Shown here piece after piece: positions 23,483-36,289 of a DNA stretch of 50,181 nt (positions are counted from its first letter, which is position 1; every line of letters starts with the position of its first letter). The position numbers were made by a program, and so were the translations under genes. Source of the stretch: Chitinophagaceae bacterium (lineage in GTDB: Bacteria > Bacteroidota > Bacteroidia > Chitinophagales > Chitinophagaceae). The stretch covers positions 1 through 50,181 of the forward strand of contig JAOAGO010000020.1 of the NCBI GenBank assembly GCA_026415715.1. Reading direction: 5' to 3'. The notes under the pieces are model-generated. The model made no database searches. It was not told the DNA's origin and was given only the letters and a program-made list of their open reading frames with translations.

Positions 23483-24124
23483 TTATTTCCTGATGTAAAT
23501 AATCGGAGTATCATAAGGGGTAATTCGTTCCCCGTTTTTTTCCAGCAGTTCCATAACTTCAAGGCGTCCGTAACTTAAATTTTCAATTAAAGAAAAACGC
23601 ATTCCACCGGGCAACTGTTTTACGGAATGCGTATAAAAAGAACCGTTTCGGTAATGATAAATGGCCGTATCAAAAGTGGGTGATATTTTAAGTTCTTTAT
23701 AATCAAATCGCAAAGCAGGATTATCATTCCGGATTTCTTTTTTATCCCACTTCTCGGGTATCTGATATACCGTGAGCCGAATCAATGAATCACCTTCCGG
23801 GGCAAAATGAAACAGGTAAGGCTTGATTTCTGTGGACTTGCCGGGATAATCATAATAACTTTCCTCCAGAAGAAAAAAACCTTTTTTTAACTCTTCGGGA
23901 ATATTGTCAATTTTTTCATCAGCTACCCGGTTAACATGGCGGGCATAAGGATGTTTGCGATTGCCGTTTTTTTCTTCTTCGCGAATCTGTTCCAGGTTGT
24001 CAAAATCGCCTGTTATAATTTCACGAAACAGTTCAATCAGTGGTTTTTGCTGGCGGGCCTTTCGGGAAGACATACAACCCGTAAAAATAACCAGCATAAT
24101 TAAATACAACATTTTCTTTTTCAT
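23483..24124 (-). CDS. Lipoprotein, possibly CpeT/CpcT-like fold
   Basis: A protein of 213 residues with a clear lipoprotein signal (LVIFTGC, Cys at about 17). The mature region carries FREIITGDFDNLEQ, KGFFLLEESYYDYP and GGMRFSLIENLSYGRLEVME. The first two resemble the CpeT/CpcT family by eye, but this is tentative and weak. It starts 10 nt after the aldehyde dehydrogenase stop, so it looks like the last gene of the leftward operon that begins with the nitrilase-fold gene. A cyanobacterial-style chromophore lyase role is not implied. Confidence 0.7.
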   Translation of the reverse strand: MKKKMLYLIMLVIFTGCMSSRKARQQKPLIELFREIITGDFDNLEQIREEEKNGNRKHPYARHVNRVADEKIDNIPEELKKGFFLLEESYYDYPGKSTEIKPYLFHFAPEGDSLIRLTVYQIPEKWDKKEIRNDNPALRFDYKELKISPTFDTAIYHYRNGSFYTHSVKQLPGGMRFSLIENLSYGRLEVMELLEKNGERITPYDTPIIYIRK

Positions 24125-24134
24125 ATCTCAACTT

Positions 24135-25544
24135 TTACCACCACCAGGGACTGGAAACTTGTTGGTCTTTGATCAGATATAATTTTTTGCGAAGGAATCG
24201 TTTTACAGACGCCGGCCCCATGCGGCTGCCGCCAATTCCGCTTAGTTTGAAGCTGTTTTTTTCCCCTTCATGAATTACAGCCGTTAGGGCCGCATCATTA
24301 ATACTTACTGCCCCTACTTCAAGCCTGCGGGCTACCCGCATCGCATTTTCCTGATTTCCGGAAAATACTGCCCCGCTCAGTCCGTAGGGTGAATCGTTTG
24401 CCCACTCAATGGCATCTTCCAAATCGGAAAAAGACATAATCGGAATCACGGGTCCGAAAGTTTCTTCCTGCATAATGAGCATTTCTCTGTTTACGGAGGT
24501 TAGAATGGTGGGTGGTAAATAGTAAGCGCCGTTGATTATCCTGCATTCCCACTCGCCAAATTCCAGCACGGCACCTTTCAGCCGTGCATCTTCTAAATGC
24601 CGGTTGATGACAGCGGCTTGCTTTTCAAATATGATCGGCCCGAGATGCCCGGATTGCGGATCGGAAATGGCCAATGTAATTTTCTGTGCCTCATGTTTGA
24701 GCAGTTTTAAAAATCCGGGCAACACATTTTGATGCACAAAAACTCTTTCAATGCTAAGGCAACTGTGCCCGTTGTTTACACAACTTCCCCATAAAATAGC
24801 CCTGGCTGCCTCTTCAAGGTGGGCATCTTCCAGAATGATGGCCGGATCTTTACCTCCCAGTTCCAAAAACACGGGTTTCATTTGTGCAGCCGCTGCCGCA
24901 TATACCTTTTGCCCTGTTTGAGTGCTTCCCGTAAAACAGATCAGATCACAAAGGTCAATCATGAACGAACCGGTTTCCCCATCGCCGGGAATATAGGTTA
25001 AAACCTCTTTCAGAAAATCGGTTTGCTGAATAGTCTGATTCATTACCTCAATAAATCGCGGCGTCACTTCACTGGGTTTTATCAAAACAGCACATCCGGC
25101 CAGTAATGCGGGGATGGTATCAATTAAAGATAACAGTAAGGGAAAATTCCATGGACTGATTACACCTACAAGCCCGTACGGCACATATTCCTGCTGAAGA
25201 GAAATGAAAGGTATGGAAGAATGCCCGGGCGGTGGCACCCTAAGAATATCATCTGCACTGCTGCACCAGCGATCAATATTTTTTATCACCAGTTCCGCCT
25301 CCAGTCTGGACTCTTCGTAGCGACCTGTATCCGAAACAAGAAATTCAACAATCCGGTCAAAATGGCTATGAATATTTTCCTGCCACGCTTTCAGAACCTG
25401 TACCCTGAAAGCAACATCCTTTTGTTTCCAGTTCTGAAACCCGTTCCGGAGCCGTTTTGTGATTTCCTGCAGTTGCTTTCTGTCAGGCTTTTCAAAGCTG
25501 TAATCATACTCACCGGTTCGCGGATTACGTACGGTGCATTTCAT
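24135..25544 (-). CDS. Aldehyde dehydrogenase family protein
   Basis: NAD(P)-dependent oxidation of an aldehyde to a carboxylate, 469 residues, cytoplasmic. Visible residues are N133 (SPWNFP), K156 (LIKPSE), the cofactor loop FTGSTQTGQKV, general base E228 (LELGGKDP) and catalytic C262 in NNGHSC. The usual glutamine of N-x-G-Q-x-C is a histidine here. Its start overlaps the stop of the DUF1838 gene by 4 nt (ATGA), so the two are translationally coupled. Within the cluster it would act on an aldehyde released by another member, but the substrate is not known. Confidence 0.92.
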   Translation of the reverse strand: MKCTVRNPRTGEYDYSFEKPDRKQLQEITKRLRNGFQNWKQKDVAFRVQVLKAWQENIHSHFDRIVEFLVSDTGRYEESRLEAELVIKNIDRWCSSADDILRVPPPGHSSIPFISLQQEYVPYGLVGVISPWNFPLLLSLIDTIPALLAGCAVLIKPSEVTPRFIEVMNQTIQQTDFLKEVLTYIPGDGETGSFMIDLCDLICFTGSTQTGQKVYAAAAAQMKPVFLELGGKDPAIILEDAHLEEAARAILWGSCVNNGHSCLSIERVFVHQNVLPGFLKLLKHEAQKITLAISDPQSGHLGPIIFEKQAAVINRHLEDARLKGAVLEFGEWECRIINGAYYLPPTILTSVNREMLIMQEETFGPVIPIMSFSDLEDAIEWANDSPYGLSGAVFSGNQENAMRVARRLEVGAVSINDAALTAVIHEGEKNSFKLSGIGGSRMGPASVKRFLRKKLYLIKDQQVSSPWWW

Positions 25545-26353
25545 TTTTTTGTGTTTTGCAGCTCTTTAATTTCTTCAAGACTTTGCGGAGGGTTTTTCCA
25601 TAAATGAGCATATTGAGTAATGTGTTTTTTCAACGTTTCACTTAAAGACTCAAAATCCGCAACCCGGTAGCAGATCAATTGTATGATGCCTTTGCCGCCG
25701 CCCAGAAAACCCGGTAAATCCCCAAAACGGTTCCATGTCAGCATGTATTTGCTTTTCAGATCTTTAGCCGAAGGCACCACAAAAAAATCATAGTTTTCGT
25801 AAGCTTCATATTTTCCTCGCGGTGTTGATAAATTGATGAATACGGGCGATGAAAATATAAGCGATTTTCCGGCTTTTCGTACACGGGTATTGTACCCGGG
25901 CCCCAAGGTAGTTTTTGAAGCACCTGATCCCTGCGTAACGTACGTTTCTACTCTGCCGTCTTTCAGTTTATAGGTTATAAGCTGATAGGGATACTCAATG
26001 TGCTGCACTTCAAAACCGTTTATGTTACCGTACAGAATCTTTCCGCTGGTGTCTTCGTAAACAAAAATTTTTCTGTTCAGTTGTATCACGCTGTCTTTAG
26101 CAGGACGGATCATATGTGCAAGGTCCACGCCCTCCATTTTGCCTACCAGTTTTCCTTCAGGATAAGAATAAATTTCCCCAAAGCAGTACCAAAGCGCCGG
26201 TTTTTTCCCGTTTCCTAATCTGCAATCAATCCATGCATCAAATAAAGCGGGAGTAAAATTCATGGTTTCATTCTGAGCAAAGACCGCAAGGTTTATGAAT
26301 AAAAACAGATGGAAAACATTTACTTTTTTAAAATATTTTTTTCCAATAGCCAT
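25541..26353 (-). CDS. DUF1838 family protein, exported (leftward paralogue)
   Basis: A protein of 270 residues of unknown function with a signal peptide (hydrophobic about 12-24, cut near NLAVFAQ). The DUF1838 pattern is visible: FDAWIDCRLGNGKKPALWYCFGEIYSYPEGK, FVYEDTSGKILYGNINGFEV, and the shared WNRFGDLPGFLGGGKG. It overlaps the upstream nitrilase-fold gene by 34 nt and the downstream aldehyde dehydrogenase by 4 nt. A second, more typical DUF1838 gene lies in the divergent operon. It presumably acts in the periplasm or at the surface. No catalytic residue can be assigned. Confidence 0.85.
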   Translation of the reverse strand: MAIGKKYFKKVNVFHLFLFINLAVFAQNETMNFTPALFDAWIDCRLGNGKKPALWYCFGEIYSYPEGKLVGKMEGVDLAHMIRPAKDSVIQLNRKIFVYEDTSGKILYGNINGFEVQHIEYPYQLITYKLKDGRVETYVTQGSGASKTTLGPGYNTRVRKAGKSLIFSSPVFINLSTPRGKYEAYENYDFFVVPSAKDLKSKYMLTWNRFGDLPGFLGGGKGIIQLICYRVADFESLSETLKKHITQYAHLWKNPPQSLEEIKELQNTKK

Positions 26354-27345
26354 TGTATGGTATTTTTTTGCTGTGTAATAAAATAATTTCGTTCCGGTTT
26401 AACGGTTAATAACTGATTTGGTGGTTGAATGGTTTGCTGATATGTTGGTAGAAATAATTCATTTCTCAAGCGGGATAAAAAATGATTCATGCCCGGACGC
26501 TGCCGATAGCTTCGCAAGGCGTTTAGATGTATAAATGCATGTGCAACCATACTTTCGCCTGTCAGGGCTTCCGCCAGTTTATATCCTTCGTAGTGTACAA
26601 TCTGGGAGTGCCCGTCTGCCGAATGGGCGGGTAAAGATGTATTAAAAATACCCGCAGAGTTGGCGCTGACCACATAAGCCATATTTTCCAATGCTCTGGC
26701 CAGTTTGGCGATGTTTTTAGGAGAAAGGATGGCCTGGGCTGCCTCACTGGTATTGTGACAAAAAATTTCAGCTCCTTTCAGCGCCAGCGATCTTGCAATT
26801 TCCGGATAAAGTATTTCTTCGCTGGCAATGCAAGCCAGACAGCCGATGGGTGTTTCGGCTACCGGAAATAAACTGTCTTCGCCGTAACATTTTATATATT
26901 CCTGCAACACATCATGTGGCGTTGGCGTAAACAAACTGATCAGTCTTCGGTATCGGAGAATGGTTTCCCCTTCCGGTGAAAGGATAAAACTGACCTGAAA
27001 ATAGAGATCCGGAAAACAAGAATCTTTTTCATAGAGATTTCCGCTTAGATAAATATCTGCCTGTCTGGAAATTTCGGATAAACTTTGATAAATTTCATCA
27101 TCGGGTTCAAGGGCTGCTTTTTCTTTCCATTCTTCAAGGGTTTCCTGCAACGGATACCCGGTAAGAAAATATTCGGGCAAAACCACAAGGCGAAGATCAT
27201 GACCGATAAATTGTTTTGCAGCCAGAATCTGCTCCCTGATACGTGAAACCGATTTTCGGATCAGGGCCATACTTTCCGACCGGGAACGACAGGAATTTAC
27301 CGCCTCGCAACGGGTCTGAAGCGCCAGTGCTTTGTAAGTTTCCAA
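26320..27345 (-). CDS. Nitrilase-superfamily protein with substituted catalytic residues
   Basis: Carbon-nitrogen hydrolase fold, 341 residues, no signal peptide. The order of motifs is normal: E58 in VVLPEYFLTGYP, then the lysine-site segment, then the elbow IGCLACIASEEILYPEIARSL. By eye the catalytic lysine position is R134 (LRYRRLIS) and the cysteine position six residues before the proline is S175. A cysteine at 172 lies three residues off. It is therefore either a pseudo-enzyme or uses different chemistry. The start is a TTG at 27345, since an upstream ATG is out of frame. It heads the leftward operon, with the divergent dyad directly upstream. Confidence 0.82.
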   Translation of the reverse strand: METYKALALQTRCEAVNSCRSRSESMALIRKSVSRIREQILAAKQFIGHDLRLVVLPEYFLTGYPLQETLEEWKEKAALEPDDEIYQSLSEISRQADIYLSGNLYEKDSCFPDLYFQVSFILSPEGETILRYRRLISLFTPTPHDVLQEYIKCYGEDSLFPVAETPIGCLACIASEEILYPEIARSLALKGAEIFCHNTSEAAQAILSPKNIAKLARALENMAYVVSANSAGIFNTSLPAHSADGHSQIVHYEGYKLAEALTGESMVAHAFIHLNALRSYRQRPGMNHFLSRLRNELFLPTYQQTIQPPNQLLTVKPERNYFITQQKNTIQWLLEKNILKK

Positions 27346-27384
27346 ATTGCTGAATTTTTATCTGCATGGCAAGTTAAAGAAAAA

Positions 27385-27403
27385 TAGTTAATGAAATTAA
27401 CTA
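27385..27403. promoter_or_regulatory. Palindromic operator candidate in the divergent promoter region
   Basis: TAGTTAATGAAATTAACTA is a perfect 8-bp inverted repeat with a 3-nt spacer. It lies in the middle of the 73-bp region between the divergent nitrilase-fold and FAD-dehydrogenase genes. Weak -7-like boxes flank it on both sides (TATTTTTC leftward, CTAATTTG rightward). This is the layout expected for one repressor controlling both operons. No regulator gene lies in the cluster. Confidence 0.5.
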
Positions 27404-27418
27404 ATTTGCCGTTGGATT

Positions 27419-28885
27419 ATGTCTTCTCCGGATATGATAATTATCGGTGCCGGTTCGGCCGGAATGATGTGTGCCATACATGCAGCCTTACGTGGCAAAC
27501 GATGTTTGGTTATGGAAAAAAGTCATCATCCGGGCGGAACATTACATCTTTCGGCCGGTCATTTAAGTGGAGCCGGAACCCGCAGACAAAAAATGATGCA
27601 TATAGAGGATTCGCCCGATTTACACTTTGACGATATCAGGCGAATCAGCCGAAACACCATGAATCCTGTAATATGCCGGAAAGCCGTAACACTGGCTTCA
27701 TCAACAATAGACTGGCTCGAAGATCATGGATATACATTTGCCGCCAATACACCGGCTATTATTTACGGTCATGAACCGTATTCCGTACCCCGAACATACT
27801 TTTCAGTACAGGATTATTCAGGCGGGCCGATCATGAAACCCGGAAAAGCAGTACTGAATGTGCTTTTGCCGATCTGGAATCGTTTGGTGCAGGAAGAAAA
27901 AATTTTTTTTCAGCCCGATACCCGGCTCACCGGAGTGGAAATGAAAAATTATGAAGTTACGGCTTTACGCTTTTTATCTTCAGGCCAATCAACCATAAGA
28001 TGGGAAGTAAATCACAAACCGGTTGTCCTGACAACGGGTGGCTATGCTTCCAATCCCGAATTATTTGCCAGAATTCATTTTCCTGAGGGATATTCAAAAA
28101 TCAAATATCCTTGTCCGGAGCGTCTGATCAGTTCGGCTAGCATAACCTCAGACGGAAGCGGATTACAACTGGCATCAGAGATTGGCGCCATCATAACCGG
28201 AGCAGAAAAACATATTTCAACACTTGGCGGACTTGAGCTTGAGCCTCAAAGCGGTCGGGCAGATTTCTGGACAGCCTGGGCCAGAGTGAGCAACGCAAAA
28301 GACCGACCTCCCCGCGAAATTTATGTAAATGATGAAGGTAAACGATTTATGAATGAATGGGAATTATCCGTAGATGCCAGGGAGCGAAAAGTATTGCAAC
28401 AACCTCATCAGCGGTTTTGGGTAATTTTTGATGAAGCTTCATTGCAGGATGGAAGTACGGTAGTAGTGCAATGGAATGCTGAAAAACTGAAAGAAGAATG
28501 CCTTAATGAAAAAGTGGTTTGGCAGGCGCCCACACTGAGCGAGTTAGCTCAAAAAACAGGATTACCCGAATCGGAATTCTTAAAAACGATTGAGGAATAT
28601 AACCGACAAGCTGAAGCCGAAAAGCACAACGGCGCCGGAAAATCACCCATAAAGCACCCCCCTTTTTATGCTTTACTGACGTATGCTTTTTCACTGATCA
28701 GTTTTGCCGGCTTACTGACCAATGAATACTTACAAATCATGCATCAGGATGGAAAAGAAATGAAAAATTTTTTTGCCGCCGGAGAAATTCTTGGCGCCGG
28801 CAGTACCAGCGGAAATGCTTTTTGCGGAGGTATGCTGCTTACCCCGGCTTTAAGTTTCGGAAAATGGCTTGGCGAAAATTTATAA
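27419..28885 (+). CDS. FAD-dependent dehydrogenase, fumarate reductase / ketosteroid-dehydrogenase-like
   Basis: Flavoprotein of 488 residues with an N-terminal FAD-binding fold (MIIIGAGSAGMMCAIHAALRGK, then GGTLHLSAGHLSGAG). It has the superfamily C-terminal FAD segment NFFAAGEILGAGSTSGNAFCGGMLLTPALSFG. The capping domain carries the usual PREIYVNDEGKRFMNE motif. Members of this superfamily add or remove hydrogens across a carbon-carbon bond next to a carbonyl. The substrate is unknown. There is no signal peptide. It is the first gene of the rightward operon and ends 10 nt before the reductase gene. Confidence 0.88.
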   Translation: MSSPDMIIIGAGSAGMMCAIHAALRGKRCLVMEKSHHPGGTLHLSAGHLSGAGTRRQKMMHIEDSPDLHFDDIRRISRNTMNPVICRKAVTLASSTIDWLEDHGYTFAANTPAIIYGHEPYSVPRTYFSVQDYSGGPIMKPGKAVLNVLLPIWNRLVQEEKIFFQPDTRLTGVEMKNYEVTALRFLSSGQSTIRWEVNHKPVVLTTGGYASNPELFARIHFPEGYSKIKYPCPERLISSASITSDGSGLQLASEIGAIITGAEKHISTLGGLELEPQSGRADFWTAWARVSNAKDRPPREIYVNDEGKRFMNEWELSVDARERKVLQQPHQRFWVIFDEASLQDGSTVVVQWNAEKLKEECLNEKVVWQAPTLSELAQKTGLPESEFLKTIEEYNRQAEAEKHNGAGKSPIKHPPFYALLTYAFSLISFAGLLTNEYLQIMHQDGKEMKNFFAAGEILGAGSTSGNAFCGGMLLTPALSFGKWLGENL

Positions 28886-28895
28886 AAAACAAGTC

Positions 28896-29885
28896 ATGAA
28901 AAATAAAAAAATAGTACTGGCTCATCGTCCGGAAGGCATGGTGAAAAACGCTGATTTCAGTATTATGGAAGATACAGTACCCGGAATTCAGGAAGGCGAG
29001 CTGCTGATTGAAAATATGTACATCAGTATTGACCCTGCTATTCGCGGATGGATGAACCACGGAAAAACATACATAAAGGGTGTAGAAATCGGTGAAACGA
29101 TGAGGGCATTTGCCGCCGGAATGGTGATTGAATCACGGCATTCCGGTTATAAACCCGGAGATTATGTTCAGGGAATGACGGGGGCACAGAAATATGCCGT
29201 CAGTAACGGAAACTTTTTAATAAAGTGCAATACTGCCGTTGCGCCTTTAAGCTGGCATCTGGGGATTTTGGGGATGCCGGGAATGACAGCTTATTTCGGA
29301 ATGATGGAAAAAGCGAAAGTAAAAAAAGGCGACACGGTACTGATCAGCGGCGCTGCCGGAACGGTAGGCAGTCTGGCCGGACAAATAGCCAAAAATGAAG
29401 GATGCCGGGTAATCGGTATTGCGGGTGGATCTGAGAAATGTGCTTTTCTGAAGTCCATAGGGTTTGAAGAAGCCATTGATTACAAAAACGAATCCGTTAC
29501 GGAAGCCCTTTCCGGGATATGCCCTTCCGGCATTGATGTTTTTTTTGACAATGTGGGTGGAAAAATTCTGGATGAGGCATTACTGCATCTGGCCCGAAAT
29601 GCCCGGGTCATCATTTGCGGAGCCATTTCTCAATATAACAGTTCACAAACAGAAGGAATACGAAACTATTTGAAGATTGTAACAGCGAGAGCTACCCTGT
29701 GCGGATTGATTGTATTTGATTATTTTGATCGTTATAATGAAGCGCTGGATTATTTTTATTCCATGATTCAAAACAAAAAAATAGTTTACCGTGAACAGAT
29801 TCTGGAAGGCATTGAATGTTTTCCTGCGGCTTTAGCTATGCTTTTTAAAGGAGAAAATAAAGGAAAGCTGATTCTGAAAATTTAA
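28896..29885 (+). CDS. NADP-dependent oxidoreductase, PTGR/CurA type (zinc-free MDR)
   Basis: Medium-chain reductase of 329 residues resembling prostaglandin reductase and the alkenal/one reductase CurA. It would reduce an alpha,beta-unsaturated carbonyl with NADPH. N-terminal part: YISIDPAIRGWMN. The GMPGMTAYFGMMEKAKVKKGDTV lead-in and the glycine-rich loop ISGAAGTVGS (about 150-160) are typical. No zinc-binding cysteines are seen. The ATG at 28896 is chosen over an upstream TTG that overlaps the previous gene. It sits 10 nt after the FAD dehydrogenase and 9 nt before the VOC-like gene. Confidence 0.9.
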   Translation: MKNKKIVLAHRPEGMVKNADFSIMEDTVPGIQEGELLIENMYISIDPAIRGWMNHGKTYIKGVEIGETMRAFAAGMVIESRHSGYKPGDYVQGMTGAQKYAVSNGNFLIKCNTAVAPLSWHLGILGMPGMTAYFGMMEKAKVKKGDTVLISGAAGTVGSLAGQIAKNEGCRVIGIAGGSEKCAFLKSIGFEEAIDYKNESVTEALSGICPSGIDVFFDNVGGKILDEALLHLARNARVIICGAISQYNSSQTEGIRNYLKIVTARATLCGLIVFDYFDRYNEALDYFYSMIQNKKIVYREQILEGIECFPAALAMLFKGENKGKLILKI

Positions 29886-29894
29886 ACGCAGTAT

Positions 29895-31019
29895 ATGAAA
29901 ATATTTTTCGCCATCTTTTTCGGCTTGTCCGGATGTATTCCTGCGGTCATTTCCCAAACTCATCACGGAAGGCCTTTACCCAATACAGGAATCAGCGGGG
30001 TTTATGAAGTGGTGCTGGGCTGTAAAGATGCACAATTTGCGATTCGTTATTTTTCTGAATTTGGTTTCCGGGTGGTTGACAGCGCAACATTTTCACCCGA
30101 ACAGGCTCAGCAGTTATACGGCTATAAAGCATTATTAAAAAGTTATCGCTTACAGAACGGCGAAACAGACAGTCACGGACTGCTCAGAATTCATCAATGG
30201 AGCAACTGGCTTGGCCCGGGCGTTGGTTACAGTGAACCGGAAACCATCGGCAGCCGGATGGCCGTAATGATGACCGAAGATATTCACCGGCTTTATGATA
30301 TATACAGTGCCCTGAGAGACAAAAAAGAAAAATGGTTGCCCACGCCGCCCGTGTCTGATGATTTGTTTGGTTTAAACAAACCCGACAGTATTTCTTTTTT
30401 CAAAAGACCGGTGTATGTAAAGGAAAATGCGGTGTATGGCGAATTTTTTAATCATGTATTCTTTCAGCGTTACGGATATTCTATTCCGGGCTACGGAACC
30501 ATCAACAAAAATGCGCCGCTGAAAACAAGCGAATTTACCCATCATGACTGGATCATTAAAGTAGACAGCATGGAACAACTTTATTATTTACAAACCGCAC
30601 TGGGTCTGAAAGCAGAAAAAGAACCTGTCGTGGACGGTGATTATTTAAAAGGTCCGAAAGAAGTGTTTATGATGCGTCCGGGTTACAGTCATTACTACAT
30701 GGGATTTGTGAGTCCGAATAATATTTGCGGTAAGCTTAAATTTTTTATGCCTTTGAGTCCTAAGCCCGACAAAAGCAGGCATCAGCGAATCGGCGAGCCG
30801 GGAATTACCCTGCATACATTTTTTGTACCCGAGCTGGAAAAAGTGTATCAACTGGTAAAAGAACATCAACTGAATCCGGGGAAAATTGTTAAAAATGAAT
30901 TCGGAGAAAAATCATTTATGTTTAAGGGCCCTGAAGGGGCTTTATGGCAGATTCTGGAAAAGAAAACAACCGTTAATCGCCCCGAAACACAGATTAAAAT
31001 TGTTTTTACCAATAATTAA
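29895..31019 (+). CDS. Exported VOC/glyoxalase-like protein
   Basis: A protein of 374 residues with an N-terminal export signal. The signal either ends in a lipobox (GLSGC, Cys14) or is cut later near VISQ. The mature protein appears to hold repeated vicinal-oxygen-chelate units: one from about 35 (ISGVYEVVLGCKDAQFAIRYFSEFGF), one from about 205 (FTHHDWIIKVDSMEQLYYLQTALGL), and a terminal FMFKGPEGALWQILEKK strand typical of VOC domains. Metal ligands cannot be assigned with confidence. VOC enzymes include ring-cleaving dioxygenases, isomerases and resistance proteins, so the reaction is open. Its position, 9 nt after the reductase, puts it in the rightward operon. Confidence 0.75.
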   Translation: MKIFFAIFFGLSGCIPAVISQTHHGRPLPNTGISGVYEVVLGCKDAQFAIRYFSEFGFRVVDSATFSPEQAQQLYGYKALLKSYRLQNGETDSHGLLRIHQWSNWLGPGVGYSEPETIGSRMAVMMTEDIHRLYDIYSALRDKKEKWLPTPPVSDDLFGLNKPDSISFFKRPVYVKENAVYGEFFNHVFFQRYGYSIPGYGTINKNAPLKTSEFTHHDWIIKVDSMEQLYYLQTALGLKAEKEPVVDGDYLKGPKEVFMMRPGYSHYYMGFVSPNNICGKLKFFMPLSPKPDKSRHQRIGEPGITLHTFFVPELEKVYQLVKEHQLNPGKIVKNEFGEKSFMFKGPEGALWQILEKKTTVNRPETQIKIVFTNN

Positions 31020-31033
31020 CCAAACTGAGTTTT

Positions 31034-31894
31034 ATGAAAAACGGATTTGTAGCATTATGCCTGCTTATTTCGGCTTTCTGTTATGCCCAGAAAAAATTAA
31101 ATCTGGATTCGGCAAGGGATAATCTTGATGCCTATATCAAAATGAGAGTTTCACTTGACAGTAATGAACATCCTGTTTTTTACAATGCGGGGAAAATATA
31201 TGCCTATGAGCCGGATAAGCCATGGAAACATTTGTTTGATTTTGAAATGTTCAATATAGCCAGGGCTGTAAAAATGCCCGGCGACAGCGGATATTATCTT
31301 CTGACGCGGGAATTATTAGTGTATAAAGACCCGAAAACCGGTAAAATTTTAGATGAATGGGTTAACCCATGGACAAACGAAAAGGTTGAGGTTTTTCATG
31401 TATGGAATGATCCGGTAAACCAGATTTTCCGTTACGGAAAATTTTTCTGTGAATTTCAGAAACAAAACGGAAGAATCAGTCTGTACAACGATGTTCCCCT
31501 GCATTATCCCAGCCCTTTACATCCGGCCGAATGGCCTGAAAACAGCCGAAGCGAATGGTATCAGGGCGCCGAAATGTTTAACTTCTTTTGTCATGAAAAA
31601 GACCTTGTTAATGCAAAAGTGAAAAATGTAATGCCCGTTCAGATTTCCTGGACACGATTCGGTGATTTTCTGCCCTGGATGAAAATGGGGAAACGTCCGG
31701 GTAATCTTTTATACCATGGCAGAGGTTACAAGCTAAAATCTTTTCAGGATTTGCCCGCTCATTTAAAAGATTATGTGATGAAAAATCATCCGGAATATTC
31801 AAAGGCGCCGCAAAAATACAGCTCGCCAAACATGACCAGTTGGAGATATTATAAAAAAGTGATGGAAGAACGAAAGAAGAGGAATACACCGTAA
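31034..31894 (+). CDS. DUF1838 family protein, exported (rightward paralogue)
   Basis: A protein of 286 residues with a signal peptide (cut near CYAQ). The DUF1838 pattern is fuller than in the leftward copy: NLDAYIKMRVSLD, GKIYAYEP, LVYKDPKTGKILDEWVNPWTN, VFHVWNDPVNQ, and the shared WTRFGDFLPW motif. Its function is unknown. It lies 14 nt after the VOC-like gene and ends the rightward operon. The two DUF1838 copies differ strongly, so they are unlikely to be a recent duplication and may form a heteromer or handle successive steps. Confidence 0.85.
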   Translation: MKNGFVALCLLISAFCYAQKKLNLDSARDNLDAYIKMRVSLDSNEHPVFYNAGKIYAYEPDKPWKHLFDFEMFNIARAVKMPGDSGYYLLTRELLVYKDPKTGKILDEWVNPWTNEKVEVFHVWNDPVNQIFRYGKFFCEFQKQNGRISLYNDVPLHYPSPLHPAEWPENSRSEWYQGAEMFNFFCHEKDLVNAKVKNVMPVQISWTRFGDFLPWMKMGKRPGNLLYHGRGYKLKSFQDLPAHLKDYVMKNHPEYSKAPQKYSSPNMTSWRYYKKVMEERKKRNTP

Positions 31895-35479: not shown

Positions 35480-36289
35480 ATGGAGCAATTTTTTAAAGAT
35501 AAGGTGGTAGCCGTTACCGGCGGTTCTGACGGCATCGGTAAGGCGCTGGTCACTCAGCTTATTCGTATGGGGGCTAAAGTGTCCACCTGCGGCAGAAACC
35601 ATGACAAATTATATAAACTTCAGCTGGAATTTCCGGGGCATTTTCTTCACACCATCGTGGCCGACGTCAGCAAGGAAAACGACTGCAAACGGTTTATTGA
35701 AAGCACAGTAAAAGCAGCCGGCGGAATAGACATTCTTATTAATAATGCAGGCATTTCCATGCGGGCCTTATTTAAAGAAGCAGATGTGGACGTGATAAAA
35801 AAAGTGATGGATATAAATTTTTTCGGAACAGTGTATTGCACAAAATTTGCCCTTCCTTCGCTGATTGAACGAAAAGGAGTGATTGTGGGTGTATCTTCAA
35901 TTGCCGGTTACCGGGGACTGCCCGGCCGGAGCGGCTATTCGGCCAGCAAATTTGCCATGCAGGGCTGGCTGGAAGCCATTAAAACCGAACTGATGCAGGA
36001 TGGCGTACATGTGATGTGGGTGGCGCCCGGTTTTACCACATCAAACATCCGGAATGTGGCGCTTGATGTTCATGGCAATCCCCACGGCGAATCGCCGATG
36101 GATGAATCCAAAATGATGAGCGCCGAAACCTGTGCCCGCAAAATTCTGCAGGCCATCAGTAAAAAGAAAAGAACACTGGTGCTAACGTTCACCGGAAAGC
36201 GAACCGTGTTAATGCAAAAATTCTTTCCGAAACTAACGGACAAAATGGTGCAACGATTCTTTTTTAAAAACGGACAATTGGTTCGCTGA
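35480..36289 (+). CDS. Short-chain dehydrogenase/reductase
   Basis: Classical SDR of 269 residues, NAD(P)-dependent. The cofactor loop is TGGSDGIG (13-20), the structural motif NNAG is at 88-91, and the catalytic residues are S140, Y153 and K157 (VSSIAGYRGLPGRSGYSASK). The C-terminal extension (TFTGKRTVLMQKFFPKLTDKMVQRFF) is amphipathic and may touch the membrane, as in DHRS7-like SDRs. The substrate is not known. A lipid or ketone substrate is only suggested by the plsX neighbourhood. Confidence 0.88.
   Translation: MEQFFKDKVVAVTGGSDGIGKALVTQLIRMGAKVSTCGRNHDKLYKLQLEFPGHFLHTIVADVSKENDCKRFIESTVKAAGGIDILINNAGISMRALFKEADVDVIKKVMDINFFGTVYCTKFALPSLIERKGVIVGVSSIAGYRGLPGRSGYSASKFAMQGWLEAIKTELMQDGVHVMWVAPGFTTSNIRNVALDVHGNPHGESPMDESKMMSAETCARKILQAISKKKRTLVLTFTGKRTVLMQKFFPKLTDKMVQRFFFKNGQLVR

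Follow-up and report, generated by a model that had tools for sequence, protein, structure and literature searches.

What do the eight genes do that diverge from a single short gap on contig JAOAGO010000020.1 of a Chitinophagaceae bacterium (assembly GCA_026415715.1)? They occupy positions 23483-31894 of the window, by which we mean the whole stretch of 50,181 nucleotides that was analysed, and pair two DUF1838 proteins with several oxidoreductases. The initial annotation took them for a self-contained unit that breaks down or detoxifies a carbonyl compound. We find instead that they almost certainly belong to a recurrent regulon of 31 genes, 8 in the window and 23 on another contig of the same genome (C22), whose content argues for ring breakdown.

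The regulon came to light through a palindrome, TAGTTAA-N5-TTAACTA, which was spotted by comparing divergent gaps. Its exact form occurs three times in the 2,626,356-base genome (window 27385-27403, C22:78003-78021 and C22:91304-91322), and these three occurrences are the system's three divergent promoters. The reversed pattern, used as a control, has no match across the genome, and the window holds one palindrome against an expected 0.01. Two copies with one mismatch, at C22:56504 and C37:17244, have neighbours that look housekeeping-like by eye and were not counted as regulon sites. From the three palindrome-bearing promoters, about 31 genes would be read outward in six operons, as judged from gene spacing. 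The last gene of one run leaving C22:78003 encodes a MarR protein (39.3 bits, cut-off 27), which may bind the palindrome as its operator. The window contributes the following features.

23483-24124, minus strand: lipoprotein-like exported protein of 213 amino acids; calycin-like barrel model, no credible Pfam family
24135-25544, minus strand: aldehyde dehydrogenase; Pfam Aldedh and NCBIfam matches
25541-26353, minus strand: DUF1838b, divergent and predicted exported; PF08894 below cut-off
26320-27345, minus strand: nitrilase-fold protein; CN_hydrolase match
27385-27403, no strand: exact palindrome TAGTTAATGAAATTAACTA, proposed operator of the MarR protein encoded on C22
27419-28885, plus strand: FAD_binding_2 oxidoreductase (the flavin adenine dinucleotide, or FAD, enzyme below); Pfam and NCBIfam matches
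28896-29885, plus strand: enone reductase of the CurA/PTGR group, ATG start; ADH_N_2 and ADH_zinc_N matches
29895-31019, plus strand: VOC-type protein, predicted exported; weak Glyoxalase/VOC match
31034-31894, plus strand: DUF1838a, predicted exported; PF08894 match

All eight open reading frames lie where they had first been placed. The reported overlaps are exact (34 nucleotides between the nitrilase-fold and DUF1838b genes, 4 between DUF1838b and the aldehyde dehydrogenase, followed by a gap of 10 before the lipoprotein gene), as is the divergent gap of 73 bp (27346-27418). On the rightward arm, gaps of 10, 9 and 14 nucleotides follow if the reductase starts at the ATG at 28896, but not if the upstream TTG at 28869 is used. 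Pfam concurs with the family assignments, within the limits that DUF1838b stays below its cut-off and that the VOC match is weak (22.8 bits, cut-off 20.6). The four export signals correspond to hydrophobic N termini in four proteins, judged by eye only. The window copy of the lipoprotein has a lipobox-like Cys, which none of nine aligned homologues has at that place. The aldehyde dehydrogenase contains ELGGKDP and NNGHSC stretches, and its catalytic Glu and Cys were read by eye as kept. The reductase scores above the Pfam thresholds of ADH_N_2 and ADH_zinc_N, and its 334 bits to curcumin reductase CurA (NF058644) lie under the equivalog cut-off of 440. Profiles of the VOC, DUF1838 and lipoprotein families had no match in a sequence search of the PDB.

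The second locus, located via a CpeT search, spans 70.8-95.2 kb of contig C22. Its families were called from relatives' homologues and from several of the genome's own proteins, the TonB receptor by eye. MFS and SDR stand for major facilitator superfamily and short-chain dehydrogenase/reductase.

C22, leftward from 78.0 kb, seven genes: HMG-CoA-lyase-like, LeuC, LeuD, CoA-transferase III, allantoinase/imidase-like, MFS, MarR
C22, rightward from 78.0 kb, eight genes: HyuA, exported protein of 265 amino acids, HyuB, methyltransferase, protein of 147 amino acids, SnoaL-like, second VOC protein, MFS
C22, leftward from 91.3 kb, six genes: DUF3598-like, LeuC, LeuD, HpcH/HpaI aldolase, HapK, SDR
C22, rightward from 91.3 kb, two genes: TonB receptor, CpeT

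Are the two loci one system? Relatives join them in a single island of about 30 genes, which lies on one contig in genomes G246, G247 and G249, whereas G248 has the imidase gene on a separate contig. The island is also found in G267 and G286, is split in G380 and was partly read in G585, and sphingomonads G252-G254 have many components in common with it. Of the 23 genes on C22, 22 match gene groups of these islands; the remaining one, the second VOC protein, matches more weakly. Beyond the locus, the genes on both sides are without island counterpart and look unrelated by eye. The exact palindrome was found in 22 of the 95 loci compared. Several of these 22 loci overlap at a single place, and none lies outside the window's genome, G244-G249 and G251.

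Recurrence of the gene set in other genomes had been proposed as a check on the cluster, and the set does recur. A pattern search of species genomes with DUF1838a, which detects close relatives only, returned 21 stretches, of which 12 were confirmed: eight Bacteroidota loci (L003-L010) and four sphingomonad loci (L011-L014). The order lipoprotein, aldehyde dehydrogenase and nitrilase-fold protein on one arm and FAD enzyme, reductase, VOC protein and DUF1838a on the other is the same in L005-L008, and also in G244 and G245 across broken contigs, with extra genes between VOC and DUF1838 in G245. The arrangement is not due to chance. It does vary: L010 has neither FAD nor reductase gene on its locus; an alpha/beta hydrolase gene, not there in the window, sits between these two in L003 and L005-L008; and in L004 such a gene precedes the reductase at the contig end. 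Among the stretches read, the FAD gene occurs only in the window's genome and G244-G249, and the reductase gene only in these and G585. The gene set is rare. The VOC protein, 58-66% identical to its counterparts in other Bacteroidota, was found in 7 of 395 phylum genomes, or 6 once a weak, frame-broken match was dropped. The cluster is accessory, because G155, of the same genus, conserves the genes of the right flank and has no match to the cluster in the 16.6 kb read. The SDR gene at 35480-36289 is not counted as part of the system, since G155 conserves it together with the adjoining genes and shows no match to the cluster in that stretch. Source environments and hosts named for these genomes include Lac Pavin, pond metagenome-assembled genomes, a Sediminibacterium from sheep duodenum and Sandarakinorhabdus cyanobacteriorum, whose strain TH057 bears the island (L013).

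What chemistry does this gene content suggest? Two unrelated families of cyclic-amide hydrolases replace each other in the system. Among the 18 genomes searched, a strong allantoinase-like amidohydrolase (at least 63% identity) is present in 10 and a PuuE-like gene (E <1e-75) in 7, with a second, weaker PuuE-like gene adjoining in 6 of the 7; none has both in strong form, and one, G255, which was read only as short contigs, has neither. These counts ignore shared ancestry and leave aside weaker matches to the imidase families (E about 1e-20 to 1e-25 and 1e-10 to 1e-19). The exchange does not only follow phylogeny, since within Chitinophagales G245 has the PuuE type whereas G244, G247 and G248 have the allantoinase-like type. 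Matches of the two families in the PDB include allantoinases of two unrelated folds, so that the families are naturally read as hydrolysing a cyclic amide or imide, and their mutual replacement points to the opening of a cyclic imide or lactam. The amidohydrolase belongs to this family by its match to PDB allantoinase 3e74 (E 1e-43); it has 235.5 bits to TIGR03178, under the equivalog cut-off of 357.85. According to PMC9863593, imidase is a dihydropyrimidinase-like enzyme, and the metal site of cyclic amidohydrolases and imidases comprises four His, one Asp and one Lys; residues of this kind were seen, by eye only, in the protein encoded at L010:2180-3703. The stretch reached far enough in three genomes, G253, G254 and G267, and in each an isochorismatase-fold gene adjoins the PuuE type.

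Further enzymes accompany these hydrolases. HyuA and HyuB have caprolactamase as their best NCBIfam match (553 and 194 bits, far under the equivalog cut-offs of 1000), and the regulon adds two LeuCD-type pairs (aconitase-type hydratases), an HMG-CoA-lyase-like enzyme, an HpcH/HpaI aldolase, a CoA-transferase and an SDR. Imide opening combined with maleate-type hydration fits alkylmaleimides, and having two hydratase pairs could allow both alkyl and propionate rings to be processed. We consider catabolism of a cyclic imide or lactam probable. The earlier view of a recurrent catabolic system with exported and cytoplasmic parts is borne out, and none matching it appears among the open-access literature listed.

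The nitrilase-fold protein would seem to complete such a route, as cyclic imides are degraded by an imidase and then a half-amidase. It matches CN_hydrolase clearly (99.8 bits, cut-off 23.2). Three genes were searched in all 18 genomes, and its own is the most constant, with a strong homologue in 17. The catalytic triad of nitrilases and amidases is Glu-Lys-Cys. At the positions that we take to be catalytic, the Glu is kept, with Arg in place of Lys and Ser in place of Cys in every one of the 11 aligned copies, which come from two phyla, a pattern that does not fit a catalytic nitrilase or amidase. Without the Cys and Lys it is not an ordinary nitrilase or amidase, and as a half-amidase it was discarded. 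Its conservation indicates that it is used; the family with the invariant Glu-Arg-Ser is, judging from the aligned copies, a conserved non-canonical nitrilase.

Which ring, then, is opened? Three families with a pigment context occur in the regulon on C22. The protein at 94230-95237 matches CpeT/CpcT PF06206 with 111 bits (cut-off 21), as do those of L010 and L008 with 95 bits each, and the profile of this group finds the phycocyanobilin lyase CpcT in the PDB (E 2e-12). DUF3598_N PF12204 scores 30.4-30.5 bits (cut-off 22) and HapK PF11639 35.5 bits (cut-off 25). A control on 14 genomes covered CpeT and DUF3598; each matched one of them, Synechococcus elongatus in both cases, and they therefore point to a linear tetrapyrrole (bilin). 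CpeT is present in all six phylum genomes with a strong VOC match (three genera) and in 22 of the 389 others (Fisher 7e-8, or 1e-6 without the window's own genome, shared ancestry being ignored). The lipoprotein at 23483-24124 keeps G-[DE]-F-x-N-x-x-Q, as in the CpeT group, and is modelled with confidence as calycin-like (pLDDT 89). In the PDB the model first matches the phycobiliprotein lyase CpeS, weakly (E 0.056), and next designed barrels and nitrobindin; the homologue of the lipoprotein in L042 reaches 13.3 bits to PF06206, under the cut-off. PMC7318184 names hematinic acid and maleimides as products of tetrapyrroles that have been reported from the sediments of lakes.

Taken together, the chances are about even that the substrate is a bilin or its fragments, and equally even that the regulon lets its hosts feed on linear tetrapyrroles, such as cyanobacterial phycobilins, or on the products of their natural oxidation. 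Binding of the bilin would fall to the CpeT-, DUF3598- and calycin-like proteins, and import of it or its pieces to the TonB and MFS proteins. The exported VOC and DUF1838 proteins, together with the cytoplasmic FAD enzyme, enone reductase and aldehyde dehydrogenase, would cut and adjust bridge and side-chain carbons, with VOC, DUF1838 and the FAD enzyme as candidates for the cut itself, and would release maleimide- or lactam-like monopyrroles. The imidase (allantoinase-like here, PuuE-like in other genomes) and the caprolactamase-like HyuA/HyuB would open the rings. Each LeuCD-type hydratase would then hydrate the dialkylmaleates of one ring type, and either the CoA-transferase and HMG-CoA-lyase-like enzyme or the HpcH/HpaI aldolase and SDR would split the products into central metabolites. 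The order of these steps and their compartments are likewise proposals. That all this makes up a complete, horizontally spread pathway mineralising linear tetrapyrroles, from bilin capture by repurposed lyase-like proteins and oxidative cutting to alkylmaleimides, we advance with some doubt; its later half, ring opening by imidase and lactamase with parallel dialkylmaleate branches for two ring types, is just as tentative.

Several observations weigh against the bilin reading or against parts of it. The palindrome was not found in L042-L046 or in the sphingomonad loci, so the operator is not common to every genome that holds the system. The islands read in G267, G286, G380 and the sphingomonads have neither the FAD nor the reductase gene, and the nitrilase-fold protein, expected as half-amidase, is without its catalytic Cys and Lys, as described above. 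A CpeT gene is found, too, in 22 phylum genomes that do not have the VOC protein, and thus the family is not specific and by itself no proof of a bilin; 18 of these 22 (L072-L089) carry a shorter, better-scoring CpeT (open frames of 212-272 amino acids, 124-168 bits) than the island type (328-419 amino acids, 109-115 bits). The link of HapK to tripyrroles is one we take from the family name. For the lipoprotein, no fold match of the model reaches E 0.001, PF06206 gives no match up to E 1, and the match to the CpeT-group profile spans 54 columns that include the signal region. DUF1838 is also found in unrelated settings, beside a Streptomyces polyketide synthase and on Novosphingobium and Calothrix plasmids. 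The genes read contain neither a heme oxygenase nor a bilin reductase nor any known enzyme that cleaves bilins, no search for these across whole genomes having been made. Finally, the samples of the PMC7318184 study itself held hematinic acid and no detectable maleimides.

The same regulon might instead degrade an N-heterocycle with no relation to tetrapyrroles (another cyclic imide, a lactam or a hydantoin-like ring), its CpeT, DUF3598 and calycin-like proteins binding some other hydrophobic ligand. The ring-opening enzymes and hydratases suggest a class of chemistry rather than a substrate, and the CpeT-family genes of genomes without the VOC protein agree with this; we nonetheless regard it as somewhat unlikely, given three pigment-context families in one regulon and controls in which CpeT and DUF3598 match Synechococcus alone. 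The original proposal of carbonyl breakdown or detoxification by eight self-sufficient genes now seems very improbable. An aldehyde dehydrogenase, an enone reductase and an FAD oxidoreductase are indeed present, and in the window's genome the eight genes stand apart from the remainder, but they share their palindrome with the 23 genes on C22, relatives hold everything in one continuous island, and the FAD and reductase genes on which the proposal rests are limited to few genomes among the stretches read. What C22 adds (imidase and lactamase, hydratases, lyases, CoA-transferase, transporters and CpeT/DUF3598/HapK) indicates N-heterocyclic ring breakdown instead. Equally improbable is scavenging of iron or a cofactor, with heme or bilin taken up only for disposal of the pigment: a TonB receptor and possible binding proteins would suit it, but carbon-skeleton enzymes are more numerous than it requires, and the genes read include no heme oxygenase, whole genomes not having been searched for one. 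Biosynthesis of a pyrrole pigment or a similar natural product, suggested by HapK in the own genome and by SnoaL_3 and methyltransferase genes in relatives, is the least probable, as hydrolases, hydratases, lyases, a CoA-transferase, a TonB receptor and MFS transporters predominate and no polyketide or peptide synthase was noticed among the genes read.

How does the regulon, read as a bilin degrader, compare with known systems? Like cyclic imide degradation, it would open its ring with a dihydropyrimidinase/allantoinase-like hydrolase; unlike it, it comprises 31 genes with hydratases, lyases and pigment-type proteins, and its nitrilase-fold protein is without the catalytic Cys. A search of the open-access literature on cyclic imides turned up an allantoinase paper. 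Nicotinate fermentation ends with dimethylmaleate hydratase DmdAB and dimethylmalate lyase, and a LeuCD-type hydratase acting on a dialkylmaleate before a lyase is proposed here too, but with two hydratase pairs, both HMG-CoA-lyase-like and HpcH/HpaI lyases, and a substrate that is itself a proposal; our search of the open-access literature for dimethylmaleate hydratase in the nicotinate context found no paper. The CpeT protein belongs to the family of the CpcT/CpeT phycobiliprotein lyases (PDB 4o4o), whereas it has about 320-335 amino acids, an N-terminal signal by eye and heterotroph hosts, and its role would be bilin binding or stripping, not attachment. HyuA/HyuB resemble caprolactamase CapA/CapB at the low scores given above. 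The two unrelated folds of the allantoinases AllB and PuuE alternate here as well, but no ureide pathway was noticed among the neighbouring genes read.

Tetrapyrroles turn over at a huge scale, that of chlorophyll being on the order of 10^12 kg yearly according to PMC7318184, and among the matches listed in the open-access literature there is no bacterial gene cluster that uses bilin rings as food. As a complete pathway of this kind, the regulon would fill a gap as a sink in lakes for the rings of phycobilin, and perhaps of heme and chlorophyll, and DUF1838 and the exported VOC protein would be new tetrapyrrole-handling proteins. If the bilin reading is true, it would also offer genes, a likely operator and a named strain for testing, and a first pathway context for DUF1838.

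The two DUF1838 proteins differ in their standing. DUF1838a has 252.9 bits to PF08894 (curated cut-off 25), 62 invariant columns among 12 aligned sequences and an export signal by eye. DUF1838b has 22.7 bits (20.9 in the genome search), under the cut-off, and no match in L003-L014; a homologue adjoins the aldehyde dehydrogenase gene in G585 (49.8% over 241 amino acids), so that it was seen in two genomes, no genome-wide search having been made with it. One model of DUF1838a was kept (pLDDT 80.7; the other four 49-61), and its Foldseek matches, eight with E up to 0.001 and including ApoB, LmcA and PsbO, give TM-scores of just about 0.2-0.3, and we therefore assign it no fold. As a diagnostic gene DUF1838 was rejected, being found in 1 of 244 family genomes, namely the window's own, and elsewhere in unrelated settings. 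The Novosphingobium and Calothrix plasmid stretches (3 of 13 matching plasmid records were examined) have no pathway gene annotated.

Some islands and flanks carry further genes. The sphingomonad loci L012, L013, L056, L057 and L058 add two TonB receptors and genes of MmgE/PrpD, acyl-CoA-dehydrogenase, MaoC and CitE type, each of these identified by eye, as well as FAD_binding_4 and FAD_binding_3 proteins and an isochorismatase; these additions read as a variant downstream route. An alpha-amylase-like gene (by eye) lies between the MarR and lipoprotein genes at L006:509-2275 and L060:2147-3859. Left of the regulon on C22, three genes at 65750-69616 (L065:7750-11616) look xanthine-dehydrogenase-like by eye, with a cysteine-desulfurase-like gene between them and the regulon. 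On a plasmid of Calothrix sp. NIES-4101, a DUF1838 relative (L098:8001-8564) is encoded next to transposases.

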